DNA of 64,000 nucleotides, from contig NZ_JACGLT010000004.1 in assembly GCF_014062315.1 (NCBI RefSeq), forward strand, positions 1 to 64,000, in the 5' to 3' direction. The DNA comes from Gelidibacter maritimus. GTDB lineage: Bacteria; Bacteroidota; Bacteroidia; Flavobacteriales; Flavobacteriaceae. The translations under genes were made by a program, and so were the position numbers. Of this stretch, positions 22,646 to 54,944 are shown one piece after another; positions within the stretch are counted from its first letter, which is position 1; the number at the start of each line of letters is the position of its first letter. The notes below the pieces were generated by a model. It worked only from the letters and a program-made list of their open reading frames with translations, was not told where the DNA came from and did not search any database.

Positions 22646-22689
22646 ATGACCGATATCATTTAATGGGAGTATTCTTCCTTATATATTTG
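22646..22689 (+). promoter_or_regulatory. Promoter of first USP gene: Crp/Fnr-like site plus TAnnTTTG box
   Basis: ATGAC-CGAT-ATCAT at 22646-22659, then 22 bases, then a perfect -7 box TATATTTG at 22682-22689. The ATG follows at 22717. No -33 TTG partner is visible, as expected for an activator-dependent promoter. If transcription starts a few bases after the box, the palindrome centre is near -41, the usual class II Crp/Fnr position. Same geometry at 24050 and 54151. Confidence 0.65.
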
Positions 22690-22716
22690 TTTTGCTTACT
22701 CTAATGATTGTAAAAC

Positions 22717-23562
22717 ATGAAAAACATACTTTTACCAACTGACTTTTCTGAAAACGCATGGAATGCTATTGGCTTTGCGCTCAAATTTTTTGAAAAAACA
22801 CCATGTACTTTTTATCTATTGCATGTCAACTCTTTAAGTTATGTGACTGCGACAGATTCGCCCTATGTTCAAACGAAGGATTTTGTTGAAAAAACGTTTA
22901 CCAAACCCGCAAAAAAGCAATTAAATACTTTATTGAAGCGCATCTCAAAAGAATTCCCGGCGAATTCCAACCATCATTTTTTCACCTTAACCGATTATAA
23001 CTTTTTTGTGGATTCCGTCCGTAACCATGTGGTGGAAAAGAAGATAGATATGATTGTTATGGGAACTAAGGGCGCCAGTGGATTGAGAAAGGTTATTATT
23101 GGAAGTAATGCCGCCGATGTTATAAAAAAAGTTCAGTGTCCTGCACTGGTGGTTCCTGAGGATGCAAAATTCACCGATTTGAAAGAAGTGGCCTTTCCAA
23201 CCGATTATCTGCTAACCTATGCGGTAGATCTTTTACAGCCACTTTATAATATTCTGGAAGCTCATAAGTCAAGTTTACAGGTGTTGCATGTTACGAGCAA
23301 TGAGGATACGCTAACTATTGCACAGCAAGACAATAAAGATGTGCTCAATGAATATTTCCATAAATTTGATACCCAATTTCATAAACTTACCAATAGAAAC
23401 GTCGAAGATGCCATTGAATGTTTTGTGCAGAGTAGGGATATCAAAATGGTGGCCATGGTAGCCAAGAACCTGAATTACTTTCAGCGGATTTTGTTCCATA
23501 ATAAAATTGAGGAAATGACATACCATACGCATATTCCATTTTTGGTGATGCACGACAAATAG
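22717..23562 (+). CDS. Universal stress protein, double domain (USP 1)
   Basis: A 281-residue cytoplasmic protein with two UspA folds. The first (MKNILLPTDFSENAWNAIGFAL ... MGTKGASGLRKVIIGSNAADVI) keeps the ATP-binding G-x2-G-x9-G-S/N loop; the second (EVAFPTDYLLTY...FLVMHDK) is degenerate in that loop. It is the first of five paralogues in the array and has its own promoter with a Crp/Fnr-like site. Bacteroidetes USPs are associated with starvation, low oxygen and envelope stress; the ligand here is presumed to be ATP or a related nucleotide. Confidence 0.92.
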   Translation: MKNILLPTDFSENAWNAIGFALKFFEKTPCTFYLLHVNSLSYVTATDSPYVQTKDFVEKTFTKPAKKQLNTLLKRISKEFPANSNHHFFTLTDYNFFVDSVRNHVVEKKIDMIVMGTKGASGLRKVIIGSNAADVIKKVQCPALVVPEDAKFTDLKEVAFPTDYLLTYAVDLLQPLYNILEAHKSSLQVLHVTSNEDTLTIAQQDNKDVLNEYFHKFDTQFHKLTNRNVEDAIECFVQSRDIKMVAMVAKNLNYFQRILFHNKIEEMTYHTHIPFLVMHDK

Positions 23563-23566
23563 ACTA

Positions 23567-23586
23567 ATTCCTGTTTTCGCAGGAAT
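23567..23586. terminator. Small hairpin after USP 1
   Basis: ATTCCTG-TTTTCG-CAGGAAT, a 7-bp stem with 6-base loop four bases after the stop codon. It is followed by CTTATTT rather than a pure T-run, so it is a weak terminator or a 3'-end stabiliser. Confidence 0.5.
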
Positions 23587-24049
23587 CTTATTTATGTCTA
23601 TCCTGTGCCTACTTTTTCTTGCGTAGATTTTTAGTTTTGACACAGAGTTGCACGGAGCGTTCACAGAGCAACACGGAGATTGATTTTTGAGAAACGAGAA
23701 CTCAGGGCAAGTATTGAGAGAATTCAACGGATTAATAAATTAGCTGTCATGCTCAATTTAAAATGCTCCTTTTTTTAAAGGGGAGTGGCTTTTGCTTCAG
23801 CAAAGAAGCAGAAGGCCTGCCCGTCCGTTCATGCTGGCGAGGTGGTCGAAAAACAGAATCACACAGGTTCCACGTAGAGCTCTTTAGCGTACATGAACTT
23901 CAACCAATGGTGAAGTGATTCTTTGTGAAATGATTGTGTCATTTATTATTTTGGTCTGTTTTAACCTGTAATTAGCTTCGCTGAATCTGAAGGCTTTTTG
24001 CTTTCCTGTCTGCCGACGAGGCCGGCGCGGCAATTAGGCAGCCCTCCAA
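23587..24049. repeat. Mosaic of intergenic repeat fragments
   Basis: About 460 bases without a gene, locally much more GC-rich than the neighbouring genes. It includes an 'acacagagttgcacggagcg ... cacagagcaacacggag' stretch (23639-23680), a 'gctccttttttt aaaggggagtgg' stretch (23763-23790) and a GC-rich imperfect hairpin (tgtctgccgacgaggccggc... ggcag, 24006-24043). These look like dispersed genome repeats inserted between USP 1 and the promoter of USP 2. Confidence 0.5.
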
Positions 24050-24093
24050 ATGACATATATCATAGTTTTTGTGATTTTATTCTGTTAACTTTA
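24050..24093 (+). promoter_or_regulatory. Promoter of second USP gene: Crp/Fnr-like site plus -7 box
   Basis: ATGAC-ATAT-ATCAT at 24050-24063, followed after exactly 22 bases by TAACTTTA at 24086-24093 (one base from TAnnTTTG). The start codon is at 24120, so the site-to-ATG distance (70) is within one base of that at USP 1 (71). This promoter probably drives USP 2 to USP 4. Confidence 0.62.
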
Positions 24094-24119
24094 TCCCATA
24101 TCAATCAAAATTATTCACT

Positions 24120-24980
24120 ATGATTTCTATTCTTTTTCCAACAGATTTTTCTAAAAACTCAATGAATGCCATCAACTATGCCTTGGAGTTTTTTAAATAT
24201 GAAAAGGTTGAGTTTTATTTTATGCACGCCTATCAGAAAGATGTCTATGAACATAAGGATTTGGTGTCCCGTGACAATTTTGATGAGGTTCTGGAGCGTG
24301 TAAAAACCGAATCTGAAGCGAGCTTGAAAGAGCTGCTTAAAACGGTGAAGGAGCTGGCACCTAATCCGCGATACACCTATCACAGTATTTCAGCTTTTGG
24401 TAGTCTGGTAGAAGAAGCCAACACTATTGCAGACACTAAAAATATCGATTTAATTGTCATGGGAACAAAAGGTAAGTCTGATGATCGTAAAATTGTTTTT
24501 GGCAGCCAAACCTTCCAAGTTTTAAAATATGTACAATGTCCGGTTTTGGCCATACCCAAGAATTATACCAACACCCAGCCAAACCGTATTTTGTTTCCAA
24601 CCGATTACCTGATTCCTTACAAACGTAGAGAATTAAAGTTGTTATGTGATTTGGCCTCGCCTTACCGAAGTATTATTGATGTTTTATATGTTTCTAAAGT
24701 TGAGAAATTATCGCTCAGACAGGAAGACAATCAGGCGTTTATGAAAGGCACCATCTGTAAAACGGAAATAAACTTCATTACTGAGAATAGCAGGCAGGTG
24801 GCTGAAACCATTCAAGGATATATTAAAAAACATGATGTTGATATGTTGGTTATGGTGAACACCCAGCATTCGTTTTTAGAAAATATGTTGTTCCCGTCCA
24901 CTATCGATAAAGTAAGTCTTGATCTTAAGATTCCGTTATTGGCAATGCAGAATTCGACACGTTCAAGCCATGCGTCTTAA
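24120..24980 (+). CDS. Universal stress protein, double domain (USP 2)
   Basis: A 286-residue paralogue of USP 1. Domain 1 (MISILFPTDFSKNSMNAINYAL ... MGTKGKSDDRKIVFGSQTFQVL) has the nucleotide loop; domain 2 (RILFPTDYLIPYKRREL ... LLAMQNST) is divergent. It is followed nine bases later by USP 3, and USP 3 and USP 4 are spaced by ten bases, so USP 2-3-4 probably form one transcript from the promoter at 24050-24093. Confidence 0.92.
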   Translation: MISILFPTDFSKNSMNAINYALEFFKYEKVEFYFMHAYQKDVYEHKDLVSRDNFDEVLERVKTESEASLKELLKTVKELAPNPRYTYHSISAFGSLVEEANTIADTKNIDLIVMGTKGKSDDRKIVFGSQTFQVLKYVQCPVLAIPKNYTNTQPNRILFPTDYLIPYKRRELKLLCDLASPYRSIIDVLYVSKVEKLSLRQEDNQAFMKGTICKTEINFITENSRQVAETIQGYIKKHDVDMLVMVNTQHSFLENMLFPSTIDKVSLDLKIPLLAMQNSTRSSHAS

Positions 24981-24989
24981 AAATTGATT

Positions 24990-25838
24990 ATGAAAAATAT
25001 CCTTCTACCTACTGATTTTTCTGACAATTCTTTGAATGCTATTAGATATACCATTCAACTTTTTGAACATCATCAGTGTACCTTTCATCTGTTCAATGCT
25101 TATACACCAGTGGTTTATGATCTGACCTACGTATTGCAAAGTCCTGCGCAATTTGGACTTCGTGATCCCATAAGAGCGGCCTCTCAAAAAGGTCTGGATG
25201 ACCTTATAACGAAGCTTTTAAAAGCATTTGGAACCAATCCAAACCATAAATTTGAAACCATTGCAAGATTTGAAACCCTGATTGCGGGGATTAAAGAGCT
25301 GATTTCTGAGCGGAATATTGACCTGGTGGTTATGGGAACCAAAGGCGCAACGGGCGCAAAGAAAATACTGTTTGGTTCTAATACGGTTCAAGTATTTAGA
25401 GAGGTTAAGTTTCCTGTATTGGCCATTCCTTCAGACTTTGAATATGTAGTGCCAAAGGAAATATTATTCCCAACCGATTTAGAAGTGGAGTTTAGCGCAA
25501 CACAACTACATGCACTTAAGGAAATAGCCAAACTGCACAATTCCAAAATCAATGCCTTGCACGTTAATACCGGCTATGGTTTTAGTGATGAGCAACATCA
25601 GAACAAAAACAAATTGCCAACCTTCTTTGATAAAATGGCCTATGAGTTTCATGATGTTGAAGACATGGAGATTCCTGCAGCTATTGACAAATTTAAGGAA
25701 GAACACGACATTGATTTGTTGGTCATGATCAATAATAAACATTCATTTTTTGAGAATTTGTTTTTTAAGGATACCATCAATCAGATTGGCTTTTATTTAA
25801 ATATTCCATTTCTTGTCATTCCCTCAAAACAGCAATAA
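24990..25838 (+). CDS. Universal stress protein, double domain (USP 3)
   Basis: A 282-residue paralogue. The frame is open to a TTG at 24984, but alignment with its sisters (MKNILLPTDFS) places the start at the ATG at 24990. Domain 1 has MGTKGATGAKKILFGSNTVQVF; domain 2 starts at EILFPTDLEVEFSATQL. It is the middle gene of the USP 2-3-4 run. Confidence 0.92.
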   Translation: MKNILLPTDFSDNSLNAIRYTIQLFEHHQCTFHLFNAYTPVVYDLTYVLQSPAQFGLRDPIRAASQKGLDDLITKLLKAFGTNPNHKFETIARFETLIAGIKELISERNIDLVVMGTKGATGAKKILFGSNTVQVFREVKFPVLAIPSDFEYVVPKEILFPTDLEVEFSATQLHALKEIAKLHNSKINALHVNTGYGFSDEQHQNKNKLPTFFDKMAYEFHDVEDMEIPAAIDKFKEEHDIDLLVMINNKHSFFENLFFKDTINQIGFYLNIPFLVIPSKQQ

Positions 25839-25848
25839 AAATTAGAAT

Positions 25849-26691
25849 ATGATGTCATTAGATAAACTTAATATATTAATTCCAACCGACTTCTCGGCCA
25901 ATGCCTGGACGGCCACCCAGTATGCTTTAAACCTATACGCTGATCGTGATTGTACTTTTTATTTTTTAAATTCTATTTCCCTCGCCCATTCAGACTCAAG
26001 ATCCTATATAACCGCAAAGTATTTGGACACTTTAGCTGAAACTTCAAAAAACGAGTTGGATGCCTTGAAAGATCGTGCAGCGCAATTAAATAATCCCAAG
26101 CACGGGTTTGAGGTCATTAGTACTTCTGAAGAGATTTCACAGGCCATTAAAAGAGCGGTAAAGATTAATGGCATTGACATGGTTATTACCGGAACTAAAG
26201 GAGCCACTGGCGTGAATAGATATTTTTTAGGAAGCAATACGGTCAAGATTATGCAAAGTTTGAAAAGTTGCCCGATGATAGCCGTACCCGATGCCCATGA
26301 GTTTAAAGTGCCAAAACACATTGCATTTCCTACTGATTTCACGCGTGTTTTTGAAGCGAAAGAAATACAGGCATTGCTCAATTTTGCCGATTTATACCGA
26401 GCACATATCTATATTTTGCACCTCAGTTTGCAAGGTGGATTAAATGTCCTGCAAGAAACCAACATGAGAGACCTTCAAGCCCATTTGGTAAACCATCAAT
26501 ATACATTTCACTGGATGGAAAAATCTGGGACAAAATCTGATGAGATCAATGAGTTTGTGGTTGACTTTGATATTGATGTGCTTGCTATGGTCAATTACAA
26601 ACATAGTTTTGTTGAAAAAGTCATCAAGGAACCGGTAATCAAAAAGATTGGATTCCAACCGATCGTACCTTTTTTGGTGATACCAGAATAA
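25849..26691 (+). CDS. Universal stress protein, double domain (USP 4)
   Basis: A 280-residue paralogue (ATGATG start; either Met possible). Domain 1: LNILIPTDFSANAWTATQYAL ... TGTKGATGVNRYFLGSNTVKIM, where the usual MGTKG has become TGTKG; domain 2 begins HIAFPTDFTRVFEAKEI. It is the last gene of the tight run; a heptamer repeat starts directly after its stop codon. Confidence 0.92.
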   Translation: MMSLDKLNILIPTDFSANAWTATQYALNLYADRDCTFYFLNSISLAHSDSRSYITAKYLDTLAETSKNELDALKDRAAQLNNPKHGFEVISTSEEISQAIKRAVKINGIDMVITGTKGATGVNRYFLGSNTVKIMQSLKSCPMIAVPDAHEFKVPKHIAFPTDFTRVFEAKEIQALLNFADLYRAHIYILHLSLQGGLNVLQETNMRDLQAHLVNHQYTFHWMEKSGTKSDEINEFVVDFDIDVLAMVNYKHSFVEKVIKEPVIKKIGFQPIVPFLVIPE

Positions 26692-26733
26692 AGTATTAAG
26701 TATCAAGTATCGAGTATCAAGTACTAAGTATTA
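26692..26733. repeat. Six-unit heptamer tandem repeat
   Basis: Six uninterrupted 7-bp units (AGTATTA, AGTATCA, AGTATCG, AGTATCA, AGTACTA, AGTATTA) start on the base after the USP 4 stop codon. The non-coding gap that contains it also carries whatever promoter serves USP 5. Confidence 0.85.
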
Positions 26734-26819
26734 GGGCGCTTATTAAATAGCAACGTTGGCGAACAATGTTTTGATAAGGTCAAGATTTTAGGCAACAACA
26801 ATGAATTAAATAAACATCC

Positions 26820-27674
26820 ATGAAAAGAAAAATATTATTACCTACTGATTTTTCAGACAATGCGCTACAGGCCATCAAATATGCCTTGGAACTATATAAA
26901 GATCAAGAATGTATTTTTTATCTTTTAAACGTCTTTTTTATAAAACCAACCAATCTTGAGAGTCTGATTGGGATGGAGCCGGGCAGCGATTTATATGAAG
27001 CCACAAAAAGTAACTCTGATAATCAGCTGGCCAAACTGTTGAGTGAAGTGGCCTTTAATGACCATGGAAACTCGAAACACAGTTTTCGAACAATTTCCAC
27101 TTTTAATGAGCCATTACAGGCCATTAAAGCTGCTGTGGAAGAAAAAGACATAGAATTGATTGTGATGGGCACCCGTGGTCAGACCAATGCCAGAAGTAAG
27201 ATTTACGGCAGTACGGCAATTGATGTTATGGAATAGGTACGGAATTGCCCGGTGATTGTGGTGCCACAACTGGCTAAGCGTGAAATTCCTAAGGAGATTG
27301 TTTTTCCAACAAACTATAAAACCAGTTTTAAGAAACAGGAATTAAAACATTTGATCAATATTGCAAAAAGCAGTCATGCCTCCATAAAAGTATTACACGT
27401 TTCAGAAGAAGATAAATTAAACGAGCAGCAGACCAATAACAAAAAGCTCTTGGACGAATATTTTGAAGAGGTTAGCCATTCTTTCCACTTATTGAGTCAG
27501 CTGTCTGTTCCTGCTGCCATTAATTGTTTTGTGGAAAGTAGAGAAAGTGATATGGTGGCTTTTATAAATAGCAAGCATTCGTTTTTTGCCAGCATTCTCA
27601 ATCAGCCTCTCGTTAAAGGAATTGCCTATAGCAGTAAAGTACCGATTTTAGTGATGCATGATTTGAAAAATTGA
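26820..27674 (+). pseudogene. Universal stress protein (USP 5) interrupted by an in-frame TAG
   Basis: The full-length family match runs through one reading frame from ATG 26820 to the stop at 27674 (285 codons), but codon 139 (27234-27236) is TAG. It falls in the linker ...AIDVME-stop-VRNCPVIVVPQ. The aligned residue in sisters is Lys or Arg (IKKVQCP, FREVKFP), so one substitution explains it. There is no frameshift. Domain 1 (138 residues, with MGTRGQTNARSKIYGSTA) could still be made as a single-domain USP, and a GTG at 27252 could restart domain 2. Otherwise the ORF is undamaged, suggesting a recent mutation or a tolerated split. Confidence 0.85.
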
Positions 27675-27908
27675 GTTCATAGGATTAAGTATTTAGAAAA
27701 AAGAATAGGGAAGTACATCAGGACCGCTTCGCCGATAGAATCAAGAATATAGACTTGAGTGGCTTAAGAGACCAAAATCAGGAAAGATTATAAGACCATA
27801 TTCTGATTGGGCAATGGCGATTATTTTACAGTCGTCGGACCAAATGTAAAATCTTACATTATTCCAATGTTCTTATTATAGTTTTTTAATTTTTAATTAT
27901 TCGCTACT

Positions 27909-29621
27909 TTAATTTTTCACCAGTTTAACCGTGGCTTTTCGACCTTGACCATCTTTGAGTTCAAGAAGGTAAATGCCGTCGGCTTGCTGAATCTCTAACG
28001 GTAGTATTTTAAGGTCTTGGAATCGTTTTTCCATAAGCAATTGGCCTGCAAGATTATATAATTGGACGTCCATTGAGGTTTGTAGGCTTTTGAATTCTAT
28101 GGAGAATTTGCCCTTGGTGGGATTTGGATGTATTATAAAGTTATCCAAAAGTGAATTTTCAACGAGATTGAGTGACGGAAGACTGAATTTCAGAATGAAG
28201 ATGTCCCAATAACCTTTGGATGTAAGTTCATATGCGTCACCTAATGGGTTAAAATCTGTCATCCCGGTAAAAGAACCAGTGCAGTAAATAGTATCGCCAT
28301 CAATGACCATGGAATTTGCGCTTGACCCGGATTCAAAATTTCCAAAGCTGTTTTTTGCCCAAATAAAACTGCCGTCGCTCGTTAATTTTAACAAAAACAT
28401 ATCGTGGCTACTTCCTGTCATATTAAAGATGCCTTCCCCAGGATCAAAATCTATCGTGTTATTAAAGTTCCCAAGAATGTATACATCACCATTGGCATCT
28501 GTTTTTATAGCGTTCCCTATGTCGTAATGTGTGCCACCAATTTGCTTTACCCAGAGTAGATTGCCATTTGGATCGAGCTTTTGAATAAAGATATCCGATT
28601 GACCGTTAGAGGTCAGGCTTAAAGTTTCTGCATCGGGATTGAAATCCACCGTGCCACTAAATCCACCTGTGATATACACATTGCCATCCATATCGACGGT
28701 GAGTGCAATGCCTTGATCTGTTTTTTCCGATCCCATCTGCTTCACCCAAAGAAGGTTGCCATCCACATCAAGTTTTTGCACAAAAATGTCATTAAAACCA
28801 TGCGATGTCAAATTGACGGTTCCATCATTGGGATCAAAATCTACGGTTTCCCAAAAATAACCGGTAGTAAGGATATTGCTATTTGCATCTGTGTCTATAG
28901 AAAAGGCTTTTGATGCACCGCTCATTTGTTTTACCCAAATCAAATTGCCGTTGCTGTCAATTTTGAGAATAAAGAGGTCTTGGTTTCCAGATGAGGTTAA
29001 GTTGACGGTGCCTTCTCCCGGGTCAAAATCCACAGTGCCAGAAAATCCTCCTGTCACTAAAATATGTCCATTGGTATCCGTGGTGATAGATTGCGCACTT
29101 GAATAGCCATCACCTACCATATGTTTTGCCCAAATAAAATCGCCATCGGCATCAAGTTTGAGTACGAAAATGTTCGTTACGTGCGGAGTTGTTGCTCCGG
29201 TAGTCAAATTATAAGTGTCTTCGCCAGGATCAAAATCTACGGTTTCAGTAAACGTTCCAGTAATATAGAGATCTCCTGTGGCATCAATGGTAATGTCGTT
29301 GGCTACATCGGCTGTTATGCCTCCAATACGCTTAGCCCATAAAAACTCGCCATTGGGGTTGAGCTTTTGGATAAATATGTCGAAAAATCCGGCGGAGGTT
29401 AAATTATAGGTGTTTTCACCGGGATCGAAATCAATGGTATTTTCAAAATACCCAACAGTATACACGTTGCCCTCCACGTCCGTGACAATCGATTTTCCTT
29501 CTTCTCTTCCTTCAGCTCCCAGGGGAACCACCCAATCCAATTCGTGCGATTGGCTAAATAGTGCTGAGGACGTTATCATGAGCACTGCGAATGAGAATAC
29601 AAAGTTTAATTTTACGTTCAT
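27909..29621 (-). CDS. T9SS-secreted SBBP/beta-propeller repeat protein (copy 1)
   Basis: A 570-residue exported protein (signal peptide ...VLMITSSALFSQS). Eight or so blades repeat the pattern DxxGNVYxTGxFxGTVDFDPGEGTxNLTSxGxxDIFIQKLDxxGNLLWVKQMGG, an SBBP-type propeller. It ends in a type A T9SS sorting domain (ENSLLDNFIIHPNPTKGKFSIEF ... GIYLLELKDGQGRKATVKLVKN). The cargo is probably surface-attached or released. A second gene of identical length, order and C-terminus lies at 41653-43365 on the same strand. Confidence 0.9.
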   Translation of the reverse strand: MNVKLNFVFSFAVLMITSSALFSQSHELDWVVPLGAEGREEGKSIVTDVEGNVYTVGYFENTIDFDPGENTYNLTSAGFFDIFIQKLNPNGEFLWAKRIGGITADVANDITIDATGDLYITGTFTETVDFDPGEDTYNLTTGATTPHVTNIFVLKLDADGDFIWAKHMVGDGYSSAQSITTDTNGHILVTGGFSGTVDFDPGEGTVNLTSSGNQDLFILKIDSNGNLIWVKQMSGASKAFSIDTDANSNILTTGYFWETVDFDPNDGTVNLTSHGFNDIFVQKLDVDGNLLWVKQMGSEKTDQGIALTVDMDGNVYITGGFSGTVDFNPDAETLSLTSNGQSDIFIQKLDPNGNLLWVKQIGGTHYDIGNAIKTDANGDVYILGNFNNTIDFDPGEGIFNMTGSSHDMFLLKLTSDGSFIWAKNSFGNFESGSSANSMVIDGDTIYCTGSFTGMTDFNPLGDAYELTSKGYWDIFILKFSLPSLNLVENSLLDNFIIHPNPTKGKFSIEFKSLQTSMDVQLYNLAGQLLMEKRFQDLKILPLEIQQADGIYLLELKDGQGRKATVKLVKN

Positions 29622-30143
29622 AATTTAGTTTTTAATGAGTTTAATAATTGACATTGAAAGTTTCTTTTTATTATCCTAACTAAGGATTTATAAATATTGA
29701 AGATTGGTATTCAATAATAACCATCGTGAGACCTTCTAAAATGTCAGCATGATTTATCAACTATCTTTTCGGATGTTTGAAATTGGACTGGTTTAAATTA
29801 GTGAAACTCAATTTTAAAAAGTTACGAAGCAATGCGGGATATTTGGGTTGTATTCCCCGATGCTCTGCGTCGATGTAAAAAAATAATTCGAATTTGATAC
29901 CTCGTATACACGGGTCGAGATAGTTCATTAAATACCAAAGTTTGGTCCTCTTTTGCGGAAATCTGTATCCACTTCAATCAAATATTCTTAAGTTTAGGGT
30001 CTGATTGAAACAGTATAAAAATTATGCGCTTTCTGAGGGTTTTTCCATCTTTATTACCAAACGTTTTTTTGTTTTAAATTTGGTTTGCATTAGCGAAATG
30101 AGCCTAACCATAAATCTTGAATTCAGATCCTAATTGATTTTAA
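29622..30143. other. Divergent intergenic region, propeller gene / sbcD
   Basis: About 520 bases with no supported ORF. A TAnnTTTG match (TAAATTTG, 30075-30082) lies 62 bases before sbcD and could be its -7 box, but no -33 TTG is seen at the expected distance. There is otherwise nothing recognisable. Confidence 0.45.
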
Positions 30144-31337: not shown

Positions 31338-31339
31338 AT

Positions 31340-37911: not shown

Positions 37912-37935
37912 CAATTAAATAGTCAAAGTATTAAG

Positions 37936-44976: not shown

Positions 44977-46767
44977 ATGAACAATCTGAACCAAACCCTC
45001 GACACACAAACATCAAAAACAAATTTAGAAACTGACAACCTTGTAAACGCTCGAAAAGAAGCGCTCCAAAAAAAGGAAGAATCAAAATCACAAGGTTTTG
45101 AATGGCTTAATGAGCATAGCCGTAACTTTTTGGCCTCTGGTTATCTAACGCCAGGTGTTACCGCTGAAGAACGTATTCGTGAAATAGCCGATAGAGCCGA
45201 ACAAATTTTGGGTATCCCTGGATATTCGGATAAATTTTATGGCTATATGTCTGAAGGGTTTTTCTCTTTGGCATCGCCAGTTTGGTCAAATTTCGGAAAG
45301 AAAAGAGGCCTTCCCATCAGCTGTTTCGGATCGCATATTGGTGACGACATGGGCAATATTCTTTATACACAATCTGAAGTGGGCATGATGTCTAAACTCG
45401 GAGGAGGAACTTCAGGGTATTTTGGGAAAATCCGTCATCGTGGTGCTGAAGTAAAAAATAACGGACAAGCGTCTGGTGCCGTACATATCATGCAGTTGTT
45501 TGAATCTATGGTAGATGTTGTGAGTCAAGGATCTGTGAGACGTGGTCGTTTTTCACCATATTTGCCGGTGGAGCATCCAGACATCATGGAGTTTTTGGAG
45601 ATAGGTACGGAGGGGAATCCTATTCAGGAACTGACCCACGGTGTGACGGTCACTAACGAGTGGATGGAAGAAATGATTGCTGGCGATGAAGCAAAACGTT
45701 CTATTTGGGCTAAAGTGCTTCAACGAAGAGGCGAAATGGGCTATCCTTACATTTTCTTTAAGGACAATGCCAATACTGGTGCTGCCGATGTTTATAAGGA
45801 CAAAAATCTTCCGATCTATGCCAGTAACTTATGTACGGAAATTATGTTGCCGTCCAATGACGATTGGTCTTTTGTCTGCGTGCTTTCCTCCGTGAATTTA
45901 TTGCATTATGATAAGTGGAAAGATACGGATGCGGTAGAGACTATGGTCTATTTCTTGGATGCAGTGATTACCGAGTTTGTTGATAAATTGGAAACTTACC
46001 GTGATTCTGATAGTAGAGAAGACCGACAAACGTTTCTGTTTATGGAACGCGCCTATAACTTTGCCAAGGACAATCGTGCCTTAGGTCTTGGTGTTTTGGG
46101 CTGGCATTCTTTGCTACAGTCAAAAATGTTGCCATTAAACAGTCAGGAAGCCTATAACCTGAACAGTGAAATCTTTAAGGTGATTCAAGACAAATCATAT
46201 AAAGCTTCAGAAGAGTTGGCAGAGAAATTTGGAGAACCAGCAGTTCTTAAAGGCTACGGCAGACGGAATGCTACGTTGAACGCCATTGCGCCAACCACAT
46301 CATCGGCGTTTATTTTGGGTCAAGTATCACAAGGTATTGAGCCGATTTGGTCCAATGTATATGTGAAGGATATCGCAAAGGTGAAAACCACGATCAAGAA
46401 CTCCTATCTGGAGGAGCTATTGGAAGAGAAAGGTTATAATAATGTGGAAGTTTGGAGAGATATCCGTAACAACGATGGCTCTGTACAGCATCTTGATTTC
46501 CTGACCGATCACGAAAAGGATGTGTTCAAAACCTATTCGGAAATTGACCAATTGGACTTGATTTATCAAGCTGCCAACCGTCAGAATCATATTGATCAGG
46601 GCCAATCAGTAAACATCATTGTGCATCCGGAAATGCCGGTTAAGGAGATCAATAAAATTCACGTTACCGCTTGGAAATTGGGATTGAAATCACTTTACTA
46701 CCAACACAGTATGAATGCTGCGCAGAAGTTTGCACAGAAGAAAGACTGTGCGAGTTGTGAGGCTTAA
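44977..46767 (+). CDS. nrdA: Ribonucleotide reductase large subunit, without ATP-cone
   Basis: A 596-residue R1 protein, shorter than usual (~750) because it lacks the N-terminal ATP-cone. It begins with an unstructured polar stretch. Active-site residues are visible: PISCFGSHIGDD (first redox Cys), NLCTEIMLPS (Asn, thiyl Cys, Glu), CVLSSVNL (second Cys), and the C-terminal CASC shuttle pair. The Tyr pair of the radical path lies in LKSLYYQHS. It reduces ribonucleoside diphosphates with NrdB. Allosteric overall control must come from the cone on NrdB. The operon is closed by the terminator at 46818. Confidence 0.95.
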   Translation: MNNLNQTLDTQTSKTNLETDNLVNARKEALQKKEESKSQGFEWLNEHSRNFLASGYLTPGVTAEERIREIADRAEQILGIPGYSDKFYGYMSEGFFSLASPVWSNFGKKRGLPISCFGSHIGDDMGNILYTQSEVGMMSKLGGGTSGYFGKIRHRGAEVKNNGQASGAVHIMQLFESMVDVVSQGSVRRGRFSPYLPVEHPDIMEFLEIGTEGNPIQELTHGVTVTNEWMEEMIAGDEAKRSIWAKVLQRRGEMGYPYIFFKDNANTGAADVYKDKNLPIYASNLCTEIMLPSNDDWSFVCVLSSVNLLHYDKWKDTDAVETMVYFLDAVITEFVDKLETYRDSDSREDRQTFLFMERAYNFAKDNRALGLGVLGWHSLLQSKMLPLNSQEAYNLNSEIFKVIQDKSYKASEELAEKFGEPAVLKGYGRRNATLNAIAPTTSSAFILGQVSQGIEPIWSNVYVKDIAKVKTTIKNSYLEELLEEKGYNNVEVWRDIRNNDGSVQHLDFLTDHEKDVFKTYSEIDQLDLIYQAANRQNHIDQGQSVNIIVHPEMPVKEINKIHVTAWKLGLKSLYYQHSMNAAQKFAQKKDCASCEA

Positions 46768-46817
46768 GAAATGATGGTTGTTAGTTGATACAACCATAAT
46801 AGAAATATTATATAAAC

Positions 46818-46851
46818 ACAGGTTCAATAACAATTGAACCTGTTTTTTTTT
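46818..46851 (+). terminator. Strong intrinsic terminator of nrdBA
   Basis: ACAGGTTCAAT (46818-46828), loop AACA, ATTGAACCTGT (46833-46843), then a run of eight or more T. Perfect 11-bp stem, 50 bases after nrdA. Confidence 0.93.
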
Positions 46852-47113
46852 GCTACGGAATTAAAAAATTGAGTAACGTAATTTTTGCACTTGTCAGGTG
46901 GCATTGAGGTGTTTGATCGTTTCATTCTAACCCACATGAACTTCAGATTGGACCGTAAATGGACTTGAAATTTAAATTAGAACGACAATAGGCTCATTGG
47001 TTTTACGCGTGTCTCAGTAATCAAAATTTCTTGTTATAAAATGTTAAACAATAGCTTAATTGGTATGCATCGTAAATAATTATTTGTATTCTTGTAAGTT
47101 GAATTCTATAGGG
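46852..47113. other. Intergenic region between nrdA and the small membrane proteins
   Basis: Part of a 346-base gap with the terminator. AT-rich; no ORF or promoter box that I can support. Confidence 0.4.
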
Positions 47114-47389
47114 ATGTCAGAGGAGATAGAAAACATAAATAACACACATAACAAATCGGTTTCAAAGTTGGACGATGCCACTTTGGCTTCTGAAAACAGC
47201 GCAACCGCAAATGAATCGGCACCTGATTTAAAGACGAAGCCAATAAAGAAGGCGTCTTTTTCTGATCGGATGAAAAATCATCGATTTTTTCTTGTTCGTG
47301 GCATTTATTACATCTTCTATTCAATTTGGGCGGTGGTAATGGCCATCGGGATGTTCATTGCGTGGTTGATTGCCATGCTTTTTATATGA
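47114..47389 (+). CDS. Small membrane protein of unknown function
   Basis: A 91-residue protein (start at 47114 chosen over an upstream in-frame start because of MSEEIENIN and the acidic N-terminus). Residues 1-55 are polar and unordered (Ser, Asn, Ala, Asp, Lys); a basic stretch (KKASFSDRMKNHRFF) leads into one long or two short membrane segments (GIYYIFYSIWAVVMAIGMFIAWLIAMLF). The N-terminus is likely cytoplasmic. Its stop overlaps the next gene's start by four bases, so the two are coupled. I do not recognise a family. Confidence 0.7.
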   Translation: MSEEIENINNTHNKSVSKLDDATLASENSATANESAPDLKTKPIKKASFSDRMKNHRFFLVRGIYYIFYSIWAVVMAIGMFIAWLIAMLFI

Positions 47390-47751
47390 TACGACTTCTT
47401 CCTTTAAAGCGGTTACATATTTATGTGTTATTGTCATTAACCGTGTTTTTTGTCGTACAGACTTCAAAATACTATTCTATTGCCGGTCCGGCTTGGGTTT
47501 TCCATTATCTCAATGATTTCTTAGCAATTCCAATAATTGCCACAATAGGCTTGCACGGAGTTTGGTTGATTAAACAGGATAAGACCTTACGATTAAATGG
47601 TTTTACCATTCTTAGTTTGGTAGTCCTGTATTCCGTTGTTTTTGAGTACTATCTTCCACAACAGGATGAGCGTTATACGGGCGATATATGGGATGTGGTC
47701 TGTTACGGTTTGGGAGGGCTGGTATTTTATGTATTGCAGAAAATAGAGTAG
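47386..47751 (+). CDS. Small four-helix membrane protein of unknown function
   Basis: A 121-residue protein. The ATGA overlap with the previous gene fixes the start at 47386. Hydrophobic segments are at about 8-25, 38-57, 68-87 and 100-117. The end (YTGDIWDVVCYGLGGLVFYVLQK) recalls the last part of VanZ-like proteins; related small proteins in this group are sometimes labelled magnesium-citrate transporters without evidence. It converges on the queuosine transporter gene 13 bases away. Confidence 0.7.
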   Translation: MIRLLPLKRLHIYVLLSLTVFFVVQTSKYYSIAGPAWVFHYLNDFLAIPIIATIGLHGVWLIKQDKTLRLNGFTILSLVVLYSVVFEYYLPQQDERYTGDIWDVVCYGLGGLVFYVLQKIE

Positions 47752-47764
47752 CTATTATTTAGCC

Positions 47765-48400
47765 TTAAAGGTTCCTTTCCTTTAATTTTTTTGTCACCCG
47801 ATCTAAAATGACTTTATAAAGCGGAAGGAAAAACAGCGCGCTAATGATGATTTTAAAAATAAAATCGACGGTAGCAATTTCGACCAAATTTTCTGCAAGA
47901 TAGGTGTCTGATGTTTTGTAAAAGGCAATAAAGAAGAATGTCAGAGTGTCCATAAAATTTCCAAAAATCCCGGAAGCCAATGGCGCATGCCACCATTGTT
48001 TATGCTGCCGAAGTTTATTGAACACAAACACATCCAAAATCTGCCCCACCACATAAGCCGCAAAACTGGCAATGGCGATTCGTGCCACAAAAAGATCAAA
48101 GCTGAGTAAGGTGTCAATTCCCAGCCAAGCCCCTTGGCGAAAAGCAACGGTAATAAAATAGGAAACGGCCAAGGCTGGAAACATGGCATAAAAAACAATT
48201 CGGCGTCCCATTTGCGCTCCAAACAAACGTACGGTTAAGTCGGTGGCCAAAAAGATGAACGGAAAGGTAAACGCACCCCAAGTGGCCTTGAAACCGAAAA
48301 CAGAGATTGGAAACTGTACCAAGTAATTGCTAGACGCAATAATAAGAATATGAAATCCGACCAGTAATAATACCAGTAGCGAGTGTTTTATAGAGGACAT
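47765..48400 (-). CDS. yhhQ: Queuosine precursor transporter (YhhQ family)
   Basis: A 211-residue inner-membrane protein with six hydrophobic segments and the family pattern GFKATWGAFTFPFIFLATDLTVRLFGAQMGRRIVFYAMFPA, followed by SFAAYVVGQILDVFVFNKLRQ and GIFGNFMDTLTFFFIAFY. YhhQ/QPTR proteins take up preQ0 or preQ1, the precursors of the tRNA base queuosine. Regulation is visible: a preQ1-I riboswitch sits nine bases upstream of the start codon, which supports the substrate assignment independently of the protein. Confidence 0.94.
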   Translation of the reverse strand: MSSIKHSLLVLLLVGFHILIIASSNYLVQFPISVFGFKATWGAFTFPFIFLATDLTVRLFGAQMGRRIVFYAMFPALAVSYFITVAFRQGAWLGIDTLLSFDLFVARIAIASFAAYVVGQILDVFVFNKLRQHKQWWHAPLASGIFGNFMDTLTFFFIAFYKTSDTYLAENLVEIATVDFIFKIIISALFFLPLYKVILDRVTKKLKERNL

Positions 48401-48409
48401 AAATTTTTT

Positions 48410-48445
48410 CTTAGTTTTTTAACGTGGGAGAATTTCGAACCACGT
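48410..48445 (-). promoter_or_regulatory. PreQ1-I riboswitch
   Basis: Read on the minus strand: stem CGTGG / CCACG, loop starting TTC and ending in C-N-CC, then the conserved A-rich tail AAAAAACTAAG. This matches the class I preQ1 aptamer (GGUUC ... CNCCC ... AAAAAACUAA). It ends nine bases before the ATG of the queuosine precursor transporter, so the ligand-bound pseudoknot would cover the ribosome-binding region and repress translation. Confidence 0.93.
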
Positions 48446-48521
48446 CCCATTTTATATGGAAAATTGAGGGCGCAAGATAGGCACTATTTCGGAGGTTTTA
48501 GCTGGAAGGGGAAGTAAAGTT

Positions 48522-49270
48522 ATGAGTTTAGAGTTCAGAGTTCAGGGTTTTTCAGTAGGCGGTCGGCTTTCATCCTCCGTCAGCTGTCATCTGTCATCTA
48601 AAGTTCAAGCCCATCAATTTTCCAGCTCCACTATGTTATGTGGACAACTTTCTGTTTTGCAAGGTTCTTTCTGCGAAAATCCGCGTAATCTGCGAGAGAG
48701 AAATAATTTACATTCTGTGGCCAGTTTGTCTGTATTTCCGTCCCCTGTCATCGGTCATCTGCCATCTAAAGTTCAAGTCCATCAATTTCCCAGTTCCATT
48801 ATGTTAAGTGAACAGTTTTCTGTTTTCTCAGGGTTCTTTCTTCGAAATTCCGCGTAATCTGCGGGAGAAAATTAGTTATATTCTGTGTCCAGTTTTTCTG
48901 TACTTCCGTCCCCTGTCATCGGTCATCTGTCAACTAAAGTTCAAGCCCATCAATTTCCCAGCTCCACTATGTTACGTGGACAACTTTCTGTTTTCTCAAG
49001 GTTCTTTCTGCGAAAATCCGCGTAATCTGCGGGAGAAAAATAAGTATATTCTGCGTCCAGTTTGTACTTCCATCCCCTGTCCTCGGTCGTCTCTCATCTA
49101 AAGTTCAAGTCCATCAATTTCCCAGTTCCACTAAGTTATGTGGACAACTTTCTGTTTTTTCAGGGTTCCTTCTGCGAAAATCCGCATAATCTGCGGGAGA
49201 AAAATAAGTTATATTCTGTGTCCAGTTTGTACTTCCGTCCCCTGTCATCGGTCATCTGTCATCTGCCATC
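48522..49270. repeat. Tandem array of four 164-169 bp intergenic repeats
   Basis: Four copies of a unit containing 'gtcatctgycatctaaagtt', 'caagyccatcaatttcccag', 'ctccactatgttaygtggac', 'aactttctgttttctcarg' and the core CTGCGAAAATCCGCGTAATC-TGCGGGA. Cores begin at 48671, 48840, 49008 and 49172 (periods 169, 168, 164). The right-hand end runs into the 3' end of the MFS gene. One more copy lies at 1486. No inverted terminal repeats or transposase were seen; the short ORFs across it are products of the repeat. Confidence 0.9.
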
Positions 49271-50766
49271 TAAAACGAATCAATTTTCCCAAAGTGTTTC
49301 GGAGTGAGCAATAAAATAATGAGCGTAAGCAGCCCCACGGTCAATAAGCCAATATAGACCGTATGTGTGGAATCGAAAAATGCATGTTGCAGATAGCTCT
49401 GAACGCTATCATCTGAATGTGCAGATTGCAATACCTCTACAACCTCATTGACTTTGGGTAGCGTGCTTTGCAAACCTTCTGGAGCCTCAGTCATTTTATC
49501 AAATAACACCGAATTGAAAATAGCGGCAAAAATGGCAGCGCCTAAACTTTGGCCAAAATATCTCGAAAACATGCTGGCGCCTGTCACAACCCCTCTTTTT
49601 CCCCAGTCTACGGTCGATTGCACGCCAACCATCAAAGGCGTAGAGATCAAACCAAATCCGGCACCCATGAGTAGCTGGATAGCCACCAACGTCCATACAG
49701 CACCCGGGTAAGGCATAAACAGAAAACTGGCCACAGCGATAATCACAATGGAAATACCGCACAGCGCAGTGTTTCTAAACCCGATCCGTAAATACAGTCT
49801 ACCCGAAAATGATGACGATATTGGCCAGGTGATACTCATACTCGCCAGAATAAAACCTGCCATAATCGCCCCAACGCCAATGACCGATTGGGCAAAAACA
49901 GGTAAGAACATATTGGGTCCCATAGTCATACAGCCCATGCCTATGGTAGCCAAATTGGCACCCACAAGAACGCGCTTTCGCCAGACCCATCTCGGTAGGA
50001 TGGGACTTTCGGCGCGCGACTCGATTTTCATGGTAATAAACACTAAAACGGCAGCAATTCCGGTGAAAATTAGGGTCTCATAAGAAATCCAATCCCAAGA
50101 TTGTCCCCCTTGCATCAGTCCGAACATGATAAATCCGCCCGTGACCAATAGCGCCAAAGCACCAAGCCAATCGATTTTGGCATATTTAATCGGTTTGTTT
50201 TCCTTGAGAAATATGCTGATCATAATAATAGAACCAATCCCAACGGGAATATTGATCAGAAAAATCCAACGCCAAGAGGCATAGTCGGCCAAGGCACCAC
50301 CTATGGTTGGGCCCATAATCGCCGAAACGCCCCAAACACTGGAAAGCCAACCCTGGATTTTTGCGCGTTCTTCAAGTGTATAAATGTCGGCAGCAATGGT
50401 ATTGACCGTCGCCATAATGGCACCTGCACCAACGGCTTGCAGGCCTCGAAACACAATCAAGCTAATCATATCCCAAGCCCCGGCACAAGCAGCAGAGCCT
50501 AAAAGGAATACAATGACGCCATAAATAAGGATGGGTTTGCGTCCGTAAATATCGGCGAGTTTCCCGTAAATGGGAATCGTAATAGTTTGGATCAGAAGAT
50601 AAATAGAGAATAACCAACTGAATAATGAAAATCCACCCAAATCGCCCACAATTTGCGGAATGGCCGTAGCTACAATGGTATTGTCCATGGCTGCTAAAGC
50701 CATGGTTATCATTAAAGCCGCTAATATCCAGCCTCTACTTTTTTGGCTTTGGACGTTGTCAGTCAT
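49270..50766 (-). CDS. MFS multidrug exporter, DHA2 (EmrB/QacA) type
   Basis: A 498-residue protein with about 14 membrane segments. The N-terminal DHA2 pattern is clear: MITMALAAMDNTIVATAIPQIVGDLGGFSLFSWLFSIYLLIQTITIPIYGKLADIYGRKPILIYG (Asp in the first helix and the motif A loop GKLADIYGRKP), followed by motif C region GWLSSVWGVSAIMGPTIGGALADYASWRWIFLINIPVG. Likely proton-driven export of drugs or other amphipathic compounds. It stands alone; no TetR/MarR gene is adjacent. The stop codon lies at the edge of the repeat array. Confidence 0.93.
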   Translation of the reverse strand: MTDNVQSQKSRGWILAALMITMALAAMDNTIVATAIPQIVGDLGGFSLFSWLFSIYLLIQTITIPIYGKLADIYGRKPILIYGVIVFLLGSAACAGAWDMISLIVFRGLQAVGAGAIMATVNTIAADIYTLEERAKIQGWLSSVWGVSAIMGPTIGGALADYASWRWIFLINIPVGIGSIIMISIFLKENKPIKYAKIDWLGALALLVTGGFIMFGLMQGGQSWDWISYETLIFTGIAAVLVFITMKIESRAESPILPRWVWRKRVLVGANLATIGMGCMTMGPNMFLPVFAQSVIGVGAIMAGFILASMSITWPISSSFSGRLYLRIGFRNTALCGISIVIIAVASFLFMPYPGAVWTLVAIQLLMGAGFGLISTPLMVGVQSTVDWGKRGVVTGASMFSRYFGQSLGAAIFAAIFNSVLFDKMTEAPEGLQSTLPKVNEVVEVLQSAHSDDSVQSYLQHAFFDSTHTVYIGLLTVGLLTLIILLLTPKHFGKIDSF

Positions 50767-51252
50767 GAAATGAATTCGTATTAATTTATTTCGCGCAAAG
50801 TTAAAACTTAATCGAACAAAGGCTGGCTCTTATCTCTTTATTGTTTGTGATGAAATTTGACATTGGATTATTTTTAAACATGAGCTTAGCTTTTAATTTA
50901 TAGGGCATTTGGAAGTTACTAACCTTAAAGACCAAATATAGCCATCATAACATCTGGAAATAAAAGTACTAAGCAGGTTGTAAGTAGGAGTTATTGCCCG
51001 AAAATAAGGACTCAAGTTTCAGTGCTCCATATTGCCTCGCTAAAAGAAAATTATCTAAGTCGCATAAAGAAACATGAAGAAATGTGACCCTTGATGCTGA
51101 CATTTTAAATAGTCTGCGATGCTATAAAAATAAGCAGTCCTTATTCCAATTTTGAAATAATGATTTCGAGGAGTTGTCCATTAATTAGGGATAGATATTA
51201 TGAACCTTAAATGAAGCCAAACGTATCACTAACATATTTTAAATCAGACATT
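50767..51252. other. Divergent intergenic region
   Basis: 486 bases between the exporter and the subtilase. No ORF, hairpin or promoter box that can be supported. Confidence 0.4.
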
Positions 51253-53166
51253 ATGAATTTAAAGTTTTACATTTATGGACTCTTTATTATGAGTTCCTCA
51301 CTCTTAATGGGTCAAACACAGGCTGAGAGGGCCAAAATCACATCAAATTATGACAGAGGAAAATCGGCAGAAGTCATTCGATACCTTGAAGAAGCGCATG
51401 CTGAAAAACAAATTAGGATTCAAAACTATTTGAAAAGTCTGTCCATCCATCAACGTTCAAACATTGATGTCGGGGCTATCAGAGAAATAACTTTGGATGG
51501 CAAGCCATTATACTATACTTCCCATAATAGTGTTTCTGCCCAAACCATAAGAGTTGATAGATTAAACTCAGATGGCGCCTTAGGTTTAAATTTAAACGGA
51601 CAAAATATGGTTGCAGGTGTCTGGGAAGCGGGTAAGGGCGTTCCTAGTTTTAGACATTTTGATTTAAATGGTAGAATATCATATTTTGATAATGACGGTA
51701 ATTTTGAGCTGCATGCCACTCATATAGCTGGAACCATAATGAGTTCCGGCGAAAATAGTACACCCTTAAATAGTGGACGGGGTATTGCTTATGAGGCTAG
51801 TGTTATAGCTGGAACTTCCGATAATGACGCAGCAGAAATGGCCGAACAAGCTGGCCTTGGCTTGTTGGTTTCTAATCATGCTTATGGTTACCTTGCTGAA
51901 GATTTGAGTTTATGGCAATTTGGAGCATATACCGATGAGTCTTATAAATTTGATTTAATTGCTCATACATATCCTTATTATCTCCCTGTTGTTTCCGTAG
52001 GCAACGATCGAAATATTTATGTGATTATTAATCCAACTAAAGACGGTTACGACTTATTATCTGGAAATAAAATTGCAAAAAACGTTATTACCACTGCTGC
52101 GGTTGATCAAGTTCTGAGCTATTCAGATTCGACAAGTGTGGTAATTGCAAATTTCAGTAGTTGGGGTCCCACTGATGATGGACGAATTAAACCTGATATT
52201 TCGACCCAGGGAACTAATGTGTTGTCGTCTTCAGACTCATCAAACTCTGCTTATAAAAGATTAAGTGGTACGTCAATGGCATCTGCGGCCACAACAGGGC
52301 TCTTATTGCTGCTGCAACAGCATTATAATAATTTGAATTCAGAATATATGTTAGCCGCTACGGCAAAAGGCTTACTGCTCCACACTGCAGATGAAGCAGG
52401 CCCTTATCTAGGTCCTGACTATAAATTTGGATGGGGTTTGGCCAATGGAGAAAAAGCGGCGCAGGCGATTTCTAATACTACAGTAAGTTCTCATATTGAG
52501 CAATCTACCCTCAACGATAATGAATCTAAAACATTTTATGTAAAAGCCTTAGGGAATGAACCTTTAATGGTTTCAATGTCGTGGACAGATCCAGAAGGCG
52601 TTGTAGTGGATGAGCTTCTTGATGACAGAACCCCTGTTTTAGTAAATGATTTAGATGTGAAAATGACCAGAGATGGTACAGATTACTTTCCGTGGAAATT
52701 AAATGCTGAGAATCCTTCGGCAGCAGCAACACGAAATTCTACAAATGATGTAGATAATTTTGAGAAAATTGAAATAGACACGCCGATTGTGAATGGTACC
52801 TATACCGTAACTATCAATCATAAAGGATCACTGACTAATGGCTCGCAAAACTATAGTCTTATTATTACTGGTGGTATTCCTGTTGAACTGGACGTTTCGA
52901 GTTTTTCTGTCAAAGAATTTGTAATCTTTCCTAATCCAAGTAGTGGGGAATTTACAATCAGGTTAAATTCTAATGTAAATAGTAATGATGCTATTAAAAT
53001 AGATGTTTACGACCTTAGCGGACGTCTGATATATAATAATACATTCGATAATGATTCTGCTAAGTTTACTAAAACTATATACTTAACAGGTGTGTCCTCT
53101 GGTGTATATATAGCTAACATCACCAAAGGAAGTGCTATGACATCTCAAAAAATTGTGATTCAATAA
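51253..53166 (+). CDS. S8 (subtilisin-like) peptidase with T9SS sorting domain
   Basis: A 637-residue secreted protein; ATG 51253 gives the signal peptide MNLKFYIYGLFIMSSSLLMGQ (an in-frame ATG lies 14 codons upstream). The catalytic domain has His154 in ELHATHIAGT, the oxyanion Asn in VVSVGNDRN, and the nucleophile Ser in LSGTSMASAATTG. The position of the catalytic Asp reads GVWEAGKG, i.e. Glu125. A P-domain-like beta sandwich follows, then a type A sorting domain (FVIFPNPSSGEFTIRL ... GVYIANITKGSAMTSQKIVIQ). Probably an extracellular protease, with reduced or altered activity if Glu125 is really the triad residue. Confidence 0.88.
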   Translation: MNLKFYIYGLFIMSSSLLMGQTQAERAKITSNYDRGKSAEVIRYLEEAHAEKQIRIQNYLKSLSIHQRSNIDVGAIREITLDGKPLYYTSHNSVSAQTIRVDRLNSDGALGLNLNGQNMVAGVWEAGKGVPSFRHFDLNGRISYFDNDGNFELHATHIAGTIMSSGENSTPLNSGRGIAYEASVIAGTSDNDAAEMAEQAGLGLLVSNHAYGYLAEDLSLWQFGAYTDESYKFDLIAHTYPYYLPVVSVGNDRNIYVIINPTKDGYDLLSGNKIAKNVITTAAVDQVLSYSDSTSVVIANFSSWGPTDDGRIKPDISTQGTNVLSSSDSSNSAYKRLSGTSMASAATTGLLLLLQQHYNNLNSEYMLAATAKGLLLHTADEAGPYLGPDYKFGWGLANGEKAAQAISNTTVSSHIEQSTLNDNESKTFYVKALGNEPLMVSMSWTDPEGVVVDELLDDRTPVLVNDLDVKMTRDGTDYFPWKLNAENPSAAATRNSTNDVDNFEKIEIDTPIVNGTYTVTINHKGSLTNGSQNYSLIITGGIPVELDVSSFSVKEFVIFPNPSSGEFTIRLNSNVNSNDAIKIDVYDLSGRLIYNNTFDNDSAKFTKTIYLTGVSSGVYIANITKGSAMTSQKIVIQ

Positions 53167-53192
53167 AGACTTAAACAGTTTTTATTATAAAG

Positions 53193-53221
53193 ACCAACAC
53201 TTACGAGCTGTTGGTTTTTTT
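53193..53221 (+). terminator. Intrinsic terminator after the subtilase
   Basis: ACCAACA (53193-53199), loop of nine bases, TGTTGGT (53209-53215), then a T-run; 27 bases after the stop. Confidence 0.85.
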
Positions 53222-53519
53222 ATGGGTAATCTACGAGGTATGTAACGAATTGTCTTTTCATTTGAGGTAACCTTGGCGTATTAAAAACCACTGGTGGGTA
53301 TAAACGCATTTTAGAATCTATTATCGAATCTTACATCTTTGAATGAAATCTGATAAAATTGAGGATCATAATTAAACAATGCCAATAGGCCTTTAACCAT
53401 CGAAGCGATGAGGGCAGCGTATCTACAAAAAATTATAAATTCAAAAGATTATTTTTATGTCCTGATGCGATAAAATCCTTGAATTATATAGTTATATTCA
53501 TCTACATTTTCATGCCCAC
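53222..53519. other. Intergenic region upstream of the GNAT gene
   Basis: Part of a 353-base gap. AT-rich; I see nothing beyond the terminator at its left end. Confidence 0.4.
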
Positions 53520-54101
53520 ATGATCAACTATACTACGACATATAGAAATATGGCCGATTTGAAAGGTATTTGTACTTTGCAAAAAGCCAATTTGAAAAAG
53601 AATCTATCAGATCAGGAGATTGAGACCTATGGATTTGTGACGGTAGACCATAGCCTTGAAATGCTTGAAAACTTAAATGCCATTGAACCCCAAATTGTGG
53701 CAAAAGACGATAAGGAAGTTGTTGGGTATGTGCTGGCGATGACAAAACAATCAAAGTCTGATATTCCTATAATTCTCCCGATGTTTGAGGAGTTCGAGAA
53801 AATCGATTATAAGGGTCAATTGGTATCCGAATATAATTATATGGTTGTTGGACAGGTTTGTGTCCACAAAAATTACAGAGGCAAGGGCGTTTTTGAAAAG
53901 TGTCTTCAACTTTATAAAGATACATTTGCCAATCGCTATGACTTTTGCATCACGGAAATCGCCTTGACCAACCATCGTTCAAGAAATGCCCATAAAAAAG
54001 TGGGGTTCAAGGAAATCCATATTTATACAGATTTGTATCAGACCCCATGGGTCATTGTGCTATGGGATTGGAACGATTCTAATGTCAATACACAAGAATA
54101 A
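53520..54101 (+). CDS. GNAT family N-acetyltransferase
   Basis: A 193-residue cytoplasmic protein. The acetyl-CoA site is in VGQVCVHKNYRGKGVFEKCLQLYKD (Q/R-x-x-G-x-G/A form: NYRGKGV), preceded by the beta-4 strand and followed by ITEIALTNHRSRNAHKKVGFKEI, a normal GNAT ending. The substrate is unknown. It lies 176 bases upstream of sdhC on the same strand but is separated from it by the sdh promoter element, so it is probably a separate transcript. Confidence 0.88.
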   Translation: MINYTTTYRNMADLKGICTLQKANLKKNLSDQEIETYGFVTVDHSLEMLENLNAIEPQIVAKDDKEVVGYVLAMTKQSKSDIPIILPMFEEFEKIDYKGQLVSEYNYMVVGQVCVHKNYRGKGVFEKCLQLYKDTFANRYDFCITEIALTNHRSRNAHKKVGFKEIHIYTDLYQTPWVIVLWDWNDSNVNTQE

Positions 54102-54150
54102 ATAAATATTCTCGCAAAAGAGCCCTGCTAATCGGTGTTTTCGACAGGAG

Positions 54151-54194
54151 ATGATATTTATCACTTTATTTTGTTATGAAAATTTCTATTTTTA
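54151..54194 (+). promoter_or_regulatory. Promoter of sdhCAB: Crp/Fnr-like site plus -7 box
   Basis: ATGAT-ATTT-ATCAC at 54151-54164, then 22 bases, then TATTTTTA at 54187-54194 (one base from TAnnTTTG). The start-to-start distance of 36 is identical to the promoters of USP 1 and USP 2. sdhC starts at 54278, leaving a leader of about 80 bases. Confidence 0.55.
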
Positions 54195-54937: not shown

Positions 54938-54944
54938 TAACTCT

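Follow-up and report, generated by a model that had tools for sequence, protein, structure and literature searches.

The stretch of DNA analysed here (the window) comprises the first 64,000 nucleotides of contig NZ_JACGLT010000004.1 of Gelidibacter maritimus. It carries the genes for a sensor kinase and a response regulator, whose ORFs overlap by 4 bases, followed by several universal stress protein (USP) genes and, further downstream, by a second copy of sdhCAB. Their coordinates are collected in Table 1, together with those of three putative operators and the promoter boxes associated with them.

Table 1. Genes, operators and promoter boxes discussed in the text (window positions).
Feature	Position	Strand	Basis or remark
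Sensor kinase P0001, 625 aa: predicted FixL-like haem-PAS, LOV, third PAS, HisKA, HATPase	19526–21403	+	Pfam; solved-structure matches; H64, R84, C179
Response regulator P0002: receiver, cNMP-binding-like domain, Crp-type HTH	21400–22458	+	Pfam; ORF overlaps kinase ORF
Operator before usp1, ATGACCGATATCAT	22646–22659	+	Spacing retained in loci L012, L013 and L014
Promoter box before usp1, TATATTTG	22682–22689	+	36 from operator start
usp1	22717–23562	+	Pfam Usp
Operator before usp2, ATGACATATATCAT	24050–24063	+	Spacing retained in loci L012, L013 and L014
Promoter box before usp2, TAACTTTA	24086–24093	+	36 from operator start
usp2, heading a run of USP genes	24120–24980	+	Pfam Usp
Three more USP genes (24984–25838, 25849–26691, 26820–27236)	24984–27236	+	Pfam Usp (each)
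Operator before second sdhC, ATGATATTTATCAC	54151–54164	+	Pattern match; right base atypical
Promoter box before second sdhC, TATTTTTA	54187–54194	+	36 from operator start
Second sdhCAB as a whole	54278–57606	+	
Second sdhC	54278–54937	+	NCBIfam TIGR02046
Second sdhA	54921–56855	+	NCBIfam NF005749
Third gene of second sdhCAB, called sdhB	56863–57606	+	Pfam Fer2_3 and Fer4; also position

Genes and operators of the window

The kinase P0001 combines two sensory domains, both of which had been missed in the initial annotation. The best solved-structure matches of its first PAS domain (PAS1) are FixL and DosP (E 1.3e-12), and H64 and R84 align with the proximal His and the distal Arg of FixL. Among 79 related kinases, the His is retained in 77 and the Arg in 70. 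With this predicted haem-PAS, P0001 can be regarded as a putative sensor of the FixL type; since it scores 136.3 bits with the curated FixL model NF041777, whose cut-off is 850, it is called FixL-like here and is not filed as FixL. The second PAS domain (PAS2) is a LOV domain that matches solved LOV kinases (E 2.3e-34) and carries C179 within the motif NCRFLQ, the putative photoactive cysteine of the LOV core. A LOV domain is present in 12 of the 79 related kinases (loci L012-L091), as judged by a motif search in all 79 and by alignment of those of at least 550 aa. The FixL-type Arg has been lost in 7 of the 12 LOV kinases versus 2 of the 67 without LOV (related sequences that are not independent), as might be expected if light were replacing oxygen as the signal. 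P0001 retains both the Arg and the LOV domain.

The response regulator P0002 matches Pfam PF00027 and PF13545 above cut-off, which places it in the Crp/Fnr family. It is not FNR proper, because it begins with a receiver domain instead of the N-terminal cysteines that hold the [4Fe-4S] cluster; proteins with this architecture are called REC-CRP below.

The window contains exactly three copies of ATGAY-N4-ATCAY, all on the forward strand, and in each case a promoter box starts 36 bases downstream of the operator start. The initial annotation had described these three sites and boxes with their common spacing, and a pattern search of the window confirmed all of them. The 14-mer alone, without the box, is only mildly unusual (three copies versus 0.87 expected). 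A looser core, TGAY-N4-RTCA with free outer bases, gives 20 strand matches in the window, and a box at 36 is found only at the sites that start at 22646, 24050 and 54151. Because the gaps between them are short, the three USP genes downstream of usp2 would be co-transcribed with it.

Operator consensus, spacing and gene set

Adding the box at a fixed spacing to the 14-mer makes the composite promoter highly non-random. In the genome, ATGAYN4ATCAY-N22-TANNTTTR was found 8 times and its control, the pattern read backwards, not once; with RTCAY as the right half, site-plus-box promoters rose to 11 versus 0. When the gap was left free at 7-37 bases and TANNTTTG was taken as the box, 4 of the 7 matches had a gap of 22. 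The corresponding counts were 96 versus 2 in the nine genomes of the genus, all of which contain such promoters, and 337 versus 8 in 247 genomes of the class, where the scan used the fixed ATGAY-type pattern only and at least one site was found in 117 genomes.

Conservation was followed in 80 loci of relatives, which were collected via the response regulator and thus selected for the regulator rather than for the site. In these loci, [A/C]TGAYN4RTCAT is followed by TAnnTTTR at a distance of 36 in 230 of 284 box matches, all other distances pooled accounting for 54; the reversed control yielded 20 sites and 5 box matches altogether. With free outer bases, 242 promoters had the box at 36, and no other distance from 32 to 40 had more than 10. 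The three-promoter pattern is therefore far from chance, and the initial judgement that an identical spacing would hardly arise by coincidence is upheld by the counts for the genome, the genus and the 80 loci. Two further expectations were also borne out, namely placement upstream of genes (none of the 242 composite promoters lies within a long ORF, and 234 have an ORF start at most 350 bases downstream) and retention of site and spacing in relatives for the two usp promoters (Table 1).

Of the 242 sites, 128 have C, 105 A, 5 G and 4 T as the left outer base, and 237 of 241 in the 80 loci have T as the right one. Since the left base is C or A and the right base nearly always T, the operator consensus is [A/C]TGAY-N4-RTCAT, the half next to the box being stricter than the distal one. 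The strict ATGAY left half was dropped, because C is as common as A once the outer bases are left free. The motif ATGAY-N4-ATCAY of the initial annotation fits the core TGAY-N4-RTCA and catches about half of the sites. Within the genus, CTGAY sites (42 versus 0 in the control) are fewer than ATGAY sites. The FNR/FixK-type operator TTGAT-N4-ATCAA, with its outer T, is not matched: the core is kept and the left base is C or A in 233 of the 242 sites. If the TAnnTTTG box begins at -12, as we assume for Bacteroidetes promoters, the operator centre would lie at about -41.5, the class II position. The earlier reading of a Crp/Fnr-type operator at a predicted class II distance is strongly supported by spacing, conservation, gene set and regulator co-occurrence.

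A second fixed arrangement, in which the box lies 22 bases after the site start, was found ten times with the ATGAY core. In eight cases it stands before the kinase gene of a relative, for example in L047 and L051, where ccoN is nearby, and one such site also precedes the stand-alone fnr-like gene of this genome (C1:161245). As the site would overlap the core promoter, autorepression of regulator and kinase genes is a fair guess. Sites of this type upstream of a kinase gene were seen in L047, L051, L057, L059, L069, L070 and L089.

The genes behind the 11 genomic sites are, by NCBIfam and Pfam names, hemN, a Cu-type nirK, a cytochrome c gene, ccoN, the gene for the beta subunit of an alternative F1F0 ATPase, fhs (formate-tetrahydrofolate ligase), four USP genes and sdhC. 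The cytochrome c gene heads the nosZ cluster, ahead of a Sec-type nosZ. Among the composite promoters of the 80 loci, 129 stand before the USP cluster, 33 before a family of 138-aa proteins and 10 before ccoN. The genome-wide set is a predicted low-oxygen regulon of the FNR/FixK kind. The targets first proposed, stress proteins and succinate dehydrogenase, both belong to the set but describe only a part of it. For comparison, the targets of FnrN/FixK named in PMC4999443 include cco, hemN, nos and nir genes.

The genome also contains a second cluster of ATP synthase genes (C1:341491-348264), with a site upstream; its beta subunit fits the alternative F1F0 model and its gene order resembles that of an N-ATPase operon.

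The sdhC promoter is the least typical one. The sdhCAB genes of the window are a second set; the other one, at C12, lacks the site. The window operator has C as its right outer base, a position almost always occupied by T. Within the genus, matches to sdhC are distant or absent (30-33% identity in six of the eight other genomes, none at E 1e-20 in the remaining two). Among 28 sdhC homologues, a site reading into sdhC with the box at 36 is found only in the window copy and in genome G271 (1 of the 27 others); in locus L168 a GTGAY site with its box at 36 lies on the strand that does not encode sdhC, and the remaining 25 show no site. The proposal that sdhC is a target thus retains a site with a correctly spaced box, but this copy is the weakest of the eleven predicted regulon members; its membership is probable, not proven, and for this site taken alone a chance match is possible. 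The window sdhCAB (54278-57606) may have been acquired, and it might act as a fumarate reductase.

Candidate regulators of the operator

Our preferred reading, which we hold to be likely, is that the three window sites are low-oxygen operators bound by a class II activator of the Crp/Fnr type, the REC-CRP regulator of the window being one reader. The initial annotation had named this regulator as the one in control. Its role as a reader is well supported by sequence linkage: in 74 of the 80 loci a composite promoter lies at most 600 bases downstream of the regulator gene, and in 67 of those 74 at most 40 bases from its stop codon. It is not the only candidate. Six Crp-type HTH matches are present in the genome, five of them above the Pfam cut-off, and the helix G[T/I]ATE[T/S]xIR is common to three proteins, namely two REC-CRP regulators (that of the window and a second one) and a stand-alone Fnr-like protein, which is encoded near ccoN and has a CxxC close to its N-terminus. 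In most proteins of this set the residue before the Arg is Ile; in E. coli FNR we take it to be Ser.

Across the class, the mean number of sites per genome is 4.30 where REC-CRP and Fnr-like proteins are both present (40 genomes, 33 with a site), 0.90 with REC-CRP only (84 genomes, 38 with a site) and 1.36 with the Fnr-like protein only (53 genomes, 34 with a site), these being related genomes and not independent. It is 0.24 in the 70 genomes with neither (12 with a site), which include weaker Fnr-like matches since an Fnr-like protein was called at a chosen cut-off of E below 5e-37. A simple one-to-one rule between regulator and site does not fit these class counts, as an exact ATGAY site is lacking in 46 of the 84 genomes with REC-CRP only, and 12 of the 70 genomes with neither regulator have sites. 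The site-less REC-CRP-only genomes may use another operator or the CTGAY form; 13 loci of distant genomes were searched for TTGA-type sites, and no clear alternative emerged.

The regulators are swapped in five genomes, in which the helices of all 22 Crp-type proteins were compared. In G165, REC-CRP is the only regulator of this helix type, and sites are kept at ccoN, cytochrome c and a CBS-domain protein, with one further site directly behind the REC-CRP gene. Conversely, four genomes of the same family (G065, G134, G194 and G221) possess the stand-alone protein only, and the ccoN site is present in all four and the hemN site in three.

The four Fnr-like-only genomes could also mean that the stand-alone protein (C1:161293-161970) is the main reader of all sites, those of the window included, and that REC-CRP binds elsewhere. 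In agreement with this, 18 of 38 Fnr-like genes have a listed site within 10 kb, compared with 9 of 35 REC-CRP genes (listed sites in site-bearing genomes only, with a rough expectation of about 0.015 per gene), and the fnr-like gene of this genome has its own box-at-22 site. However, this explanation leaves unaccounted for the composite promoters directly downstream of REC-CRP genes in 74 of 80 loci, the sites kept in G165 and the higher mean of REC-CRP-only genomes compared with those having neither regulator; we regard it as unlikely. Less likely still is that the window sites are read by the second REC-CRP regulator (C1:353500-354570), which has its own PAS/GAF kinase. It shares the helix type (GTATETAIR) and has a site 4.2 kb from its gene, before a USP gene, but it is just 41% identical to the window regulator, and the window sites adjoin the latter in an order that is conserved in relatives. 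The kinase of this second system (C1:354567-357833) contains several PAS domains and a GAF domain, one PAS being LOV-like without the Cys (ENNLLFLR). Chance, by which three similar 14-mers would merely happen to share one spacing, draws on the 14-mer alone reaching three copies in 8 of 100 shuffles and is refuted for the whole set, with a negligible probability, by the site-plus-box counts against controls in genome, genus and class.

From adjacency, co-occurrence, linkage and regulator swap it therefore follows that both kinds of regulator most likely read the same operator. The shared helix and the four Fnr-like-only genomes that keep sites rule out the window regulator as exclusive reader; it is very likely one of several.

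The proposed switch and related systems

The low-oxygen operators of the window would be bound at [A/C]TGAY-N4-RTCAT by a dimer of the Crp/Fnr type, centred near -41.5, which would activate RNA polymerase as a class II activator rather than repress it, with transcription starting at the predicted distance from the box. Low oxygen, through a presumed oxygen-binding haem in PAS1, would switch on the FixL-like kinase, which would then phosphorylate the receiver of REC-CRP and so allow its CRP part to bind DNA. The stand-alone Fnr-like protein would read the same operator, and the second REC-CRP regulator probably does so too. In FixL itself, low oxygen raises kinase activity, as stated in PMC7078487.

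The FixL-FixJ-FixK system of the Alphaproteobacteria (PMC4999443, PMC7078487) resembles the present one in its haem-PAS kinase (here predicted), in its low-oxygen genes (cco, hemN, nir, nos) and in a Crp/Fnr-type output acting on a 5-4-5 operator. The FixK/FnrN consensus given in PMC4999443 is TTGANCNNGATCAANG, in contrast to [A/C]TGAY-N4-RTCAT here. In that system FixJ and FixK are distinct proteins linked by a transcriptional cascade, whereas here receiver and CRP-type output are joined in one protein.

The FNR/Anr regulons of Gammaproteobacteria have in common with this set the 5-4-5 operator, the class II placement (predicted here) and the low-oxygen genes, and Anr also controls USP genes. 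The differences are the changed outer operator base, the helix G[I/T]ATE[T/S]xIR and, for the REC-CRP protein, the absence of [4Fe-4S] sensing. In mycobacteria, the haem sensor kinases DosS and DosT control USP genes at low oxygen through DosR; their haem domains are GAF domains and DosR is a NarL-type regulator, unlike the predicted haem-PAS and the Crp-type regulator described here. As in LOV histidine kinases, PAS2 carries the NCRFLQ cysteine, but its LOV domain is joined to a FixL-like PAS and would work with a REC-CRP regulator.

The system is a variation on the FixL/FixK/FNR theme in which predicted sensing and Crp-type output are divided between two proteins and a LOV domain has been added in this lineage. 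A broader and more tentative idea, to which we give rather less than even weight, is that in Bacteroidetes the FixL-FixJ-FixK cascade may have collapsed to a haem-PAS kinase and a REC-CRP activator sharing operators with Fnr-like proteins, and that a LOV-bearing subset, including the window kinase, may read oxygen and blue light in one pathway. No description of such a regulon in Bacteroidetes was found in the open-licence literature searched by title and abstract; the Flavobacteriales regulators of PMC8510549 are treated as MalR-like.

The window thus probably contains a low-oxygen switch that is partly controlled by an oxygen-sensing kinase together with the adjacent regulator, and this predicted switch belongs to a conserved low-oxygen and stress gene set of the Bacteroidetes. 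Low-oxygen control in this group now has a concrete operator, spacing and set of candidate regulators, and one switch would tie together denitrification (nirK, nosZ), high-affinity respiration (ccoN) and universal stress proteins. It would also be a natural example of different sensors feeding into one set of operators: an Fnr-like protein and a haem kinase, the latter with or without LOV.
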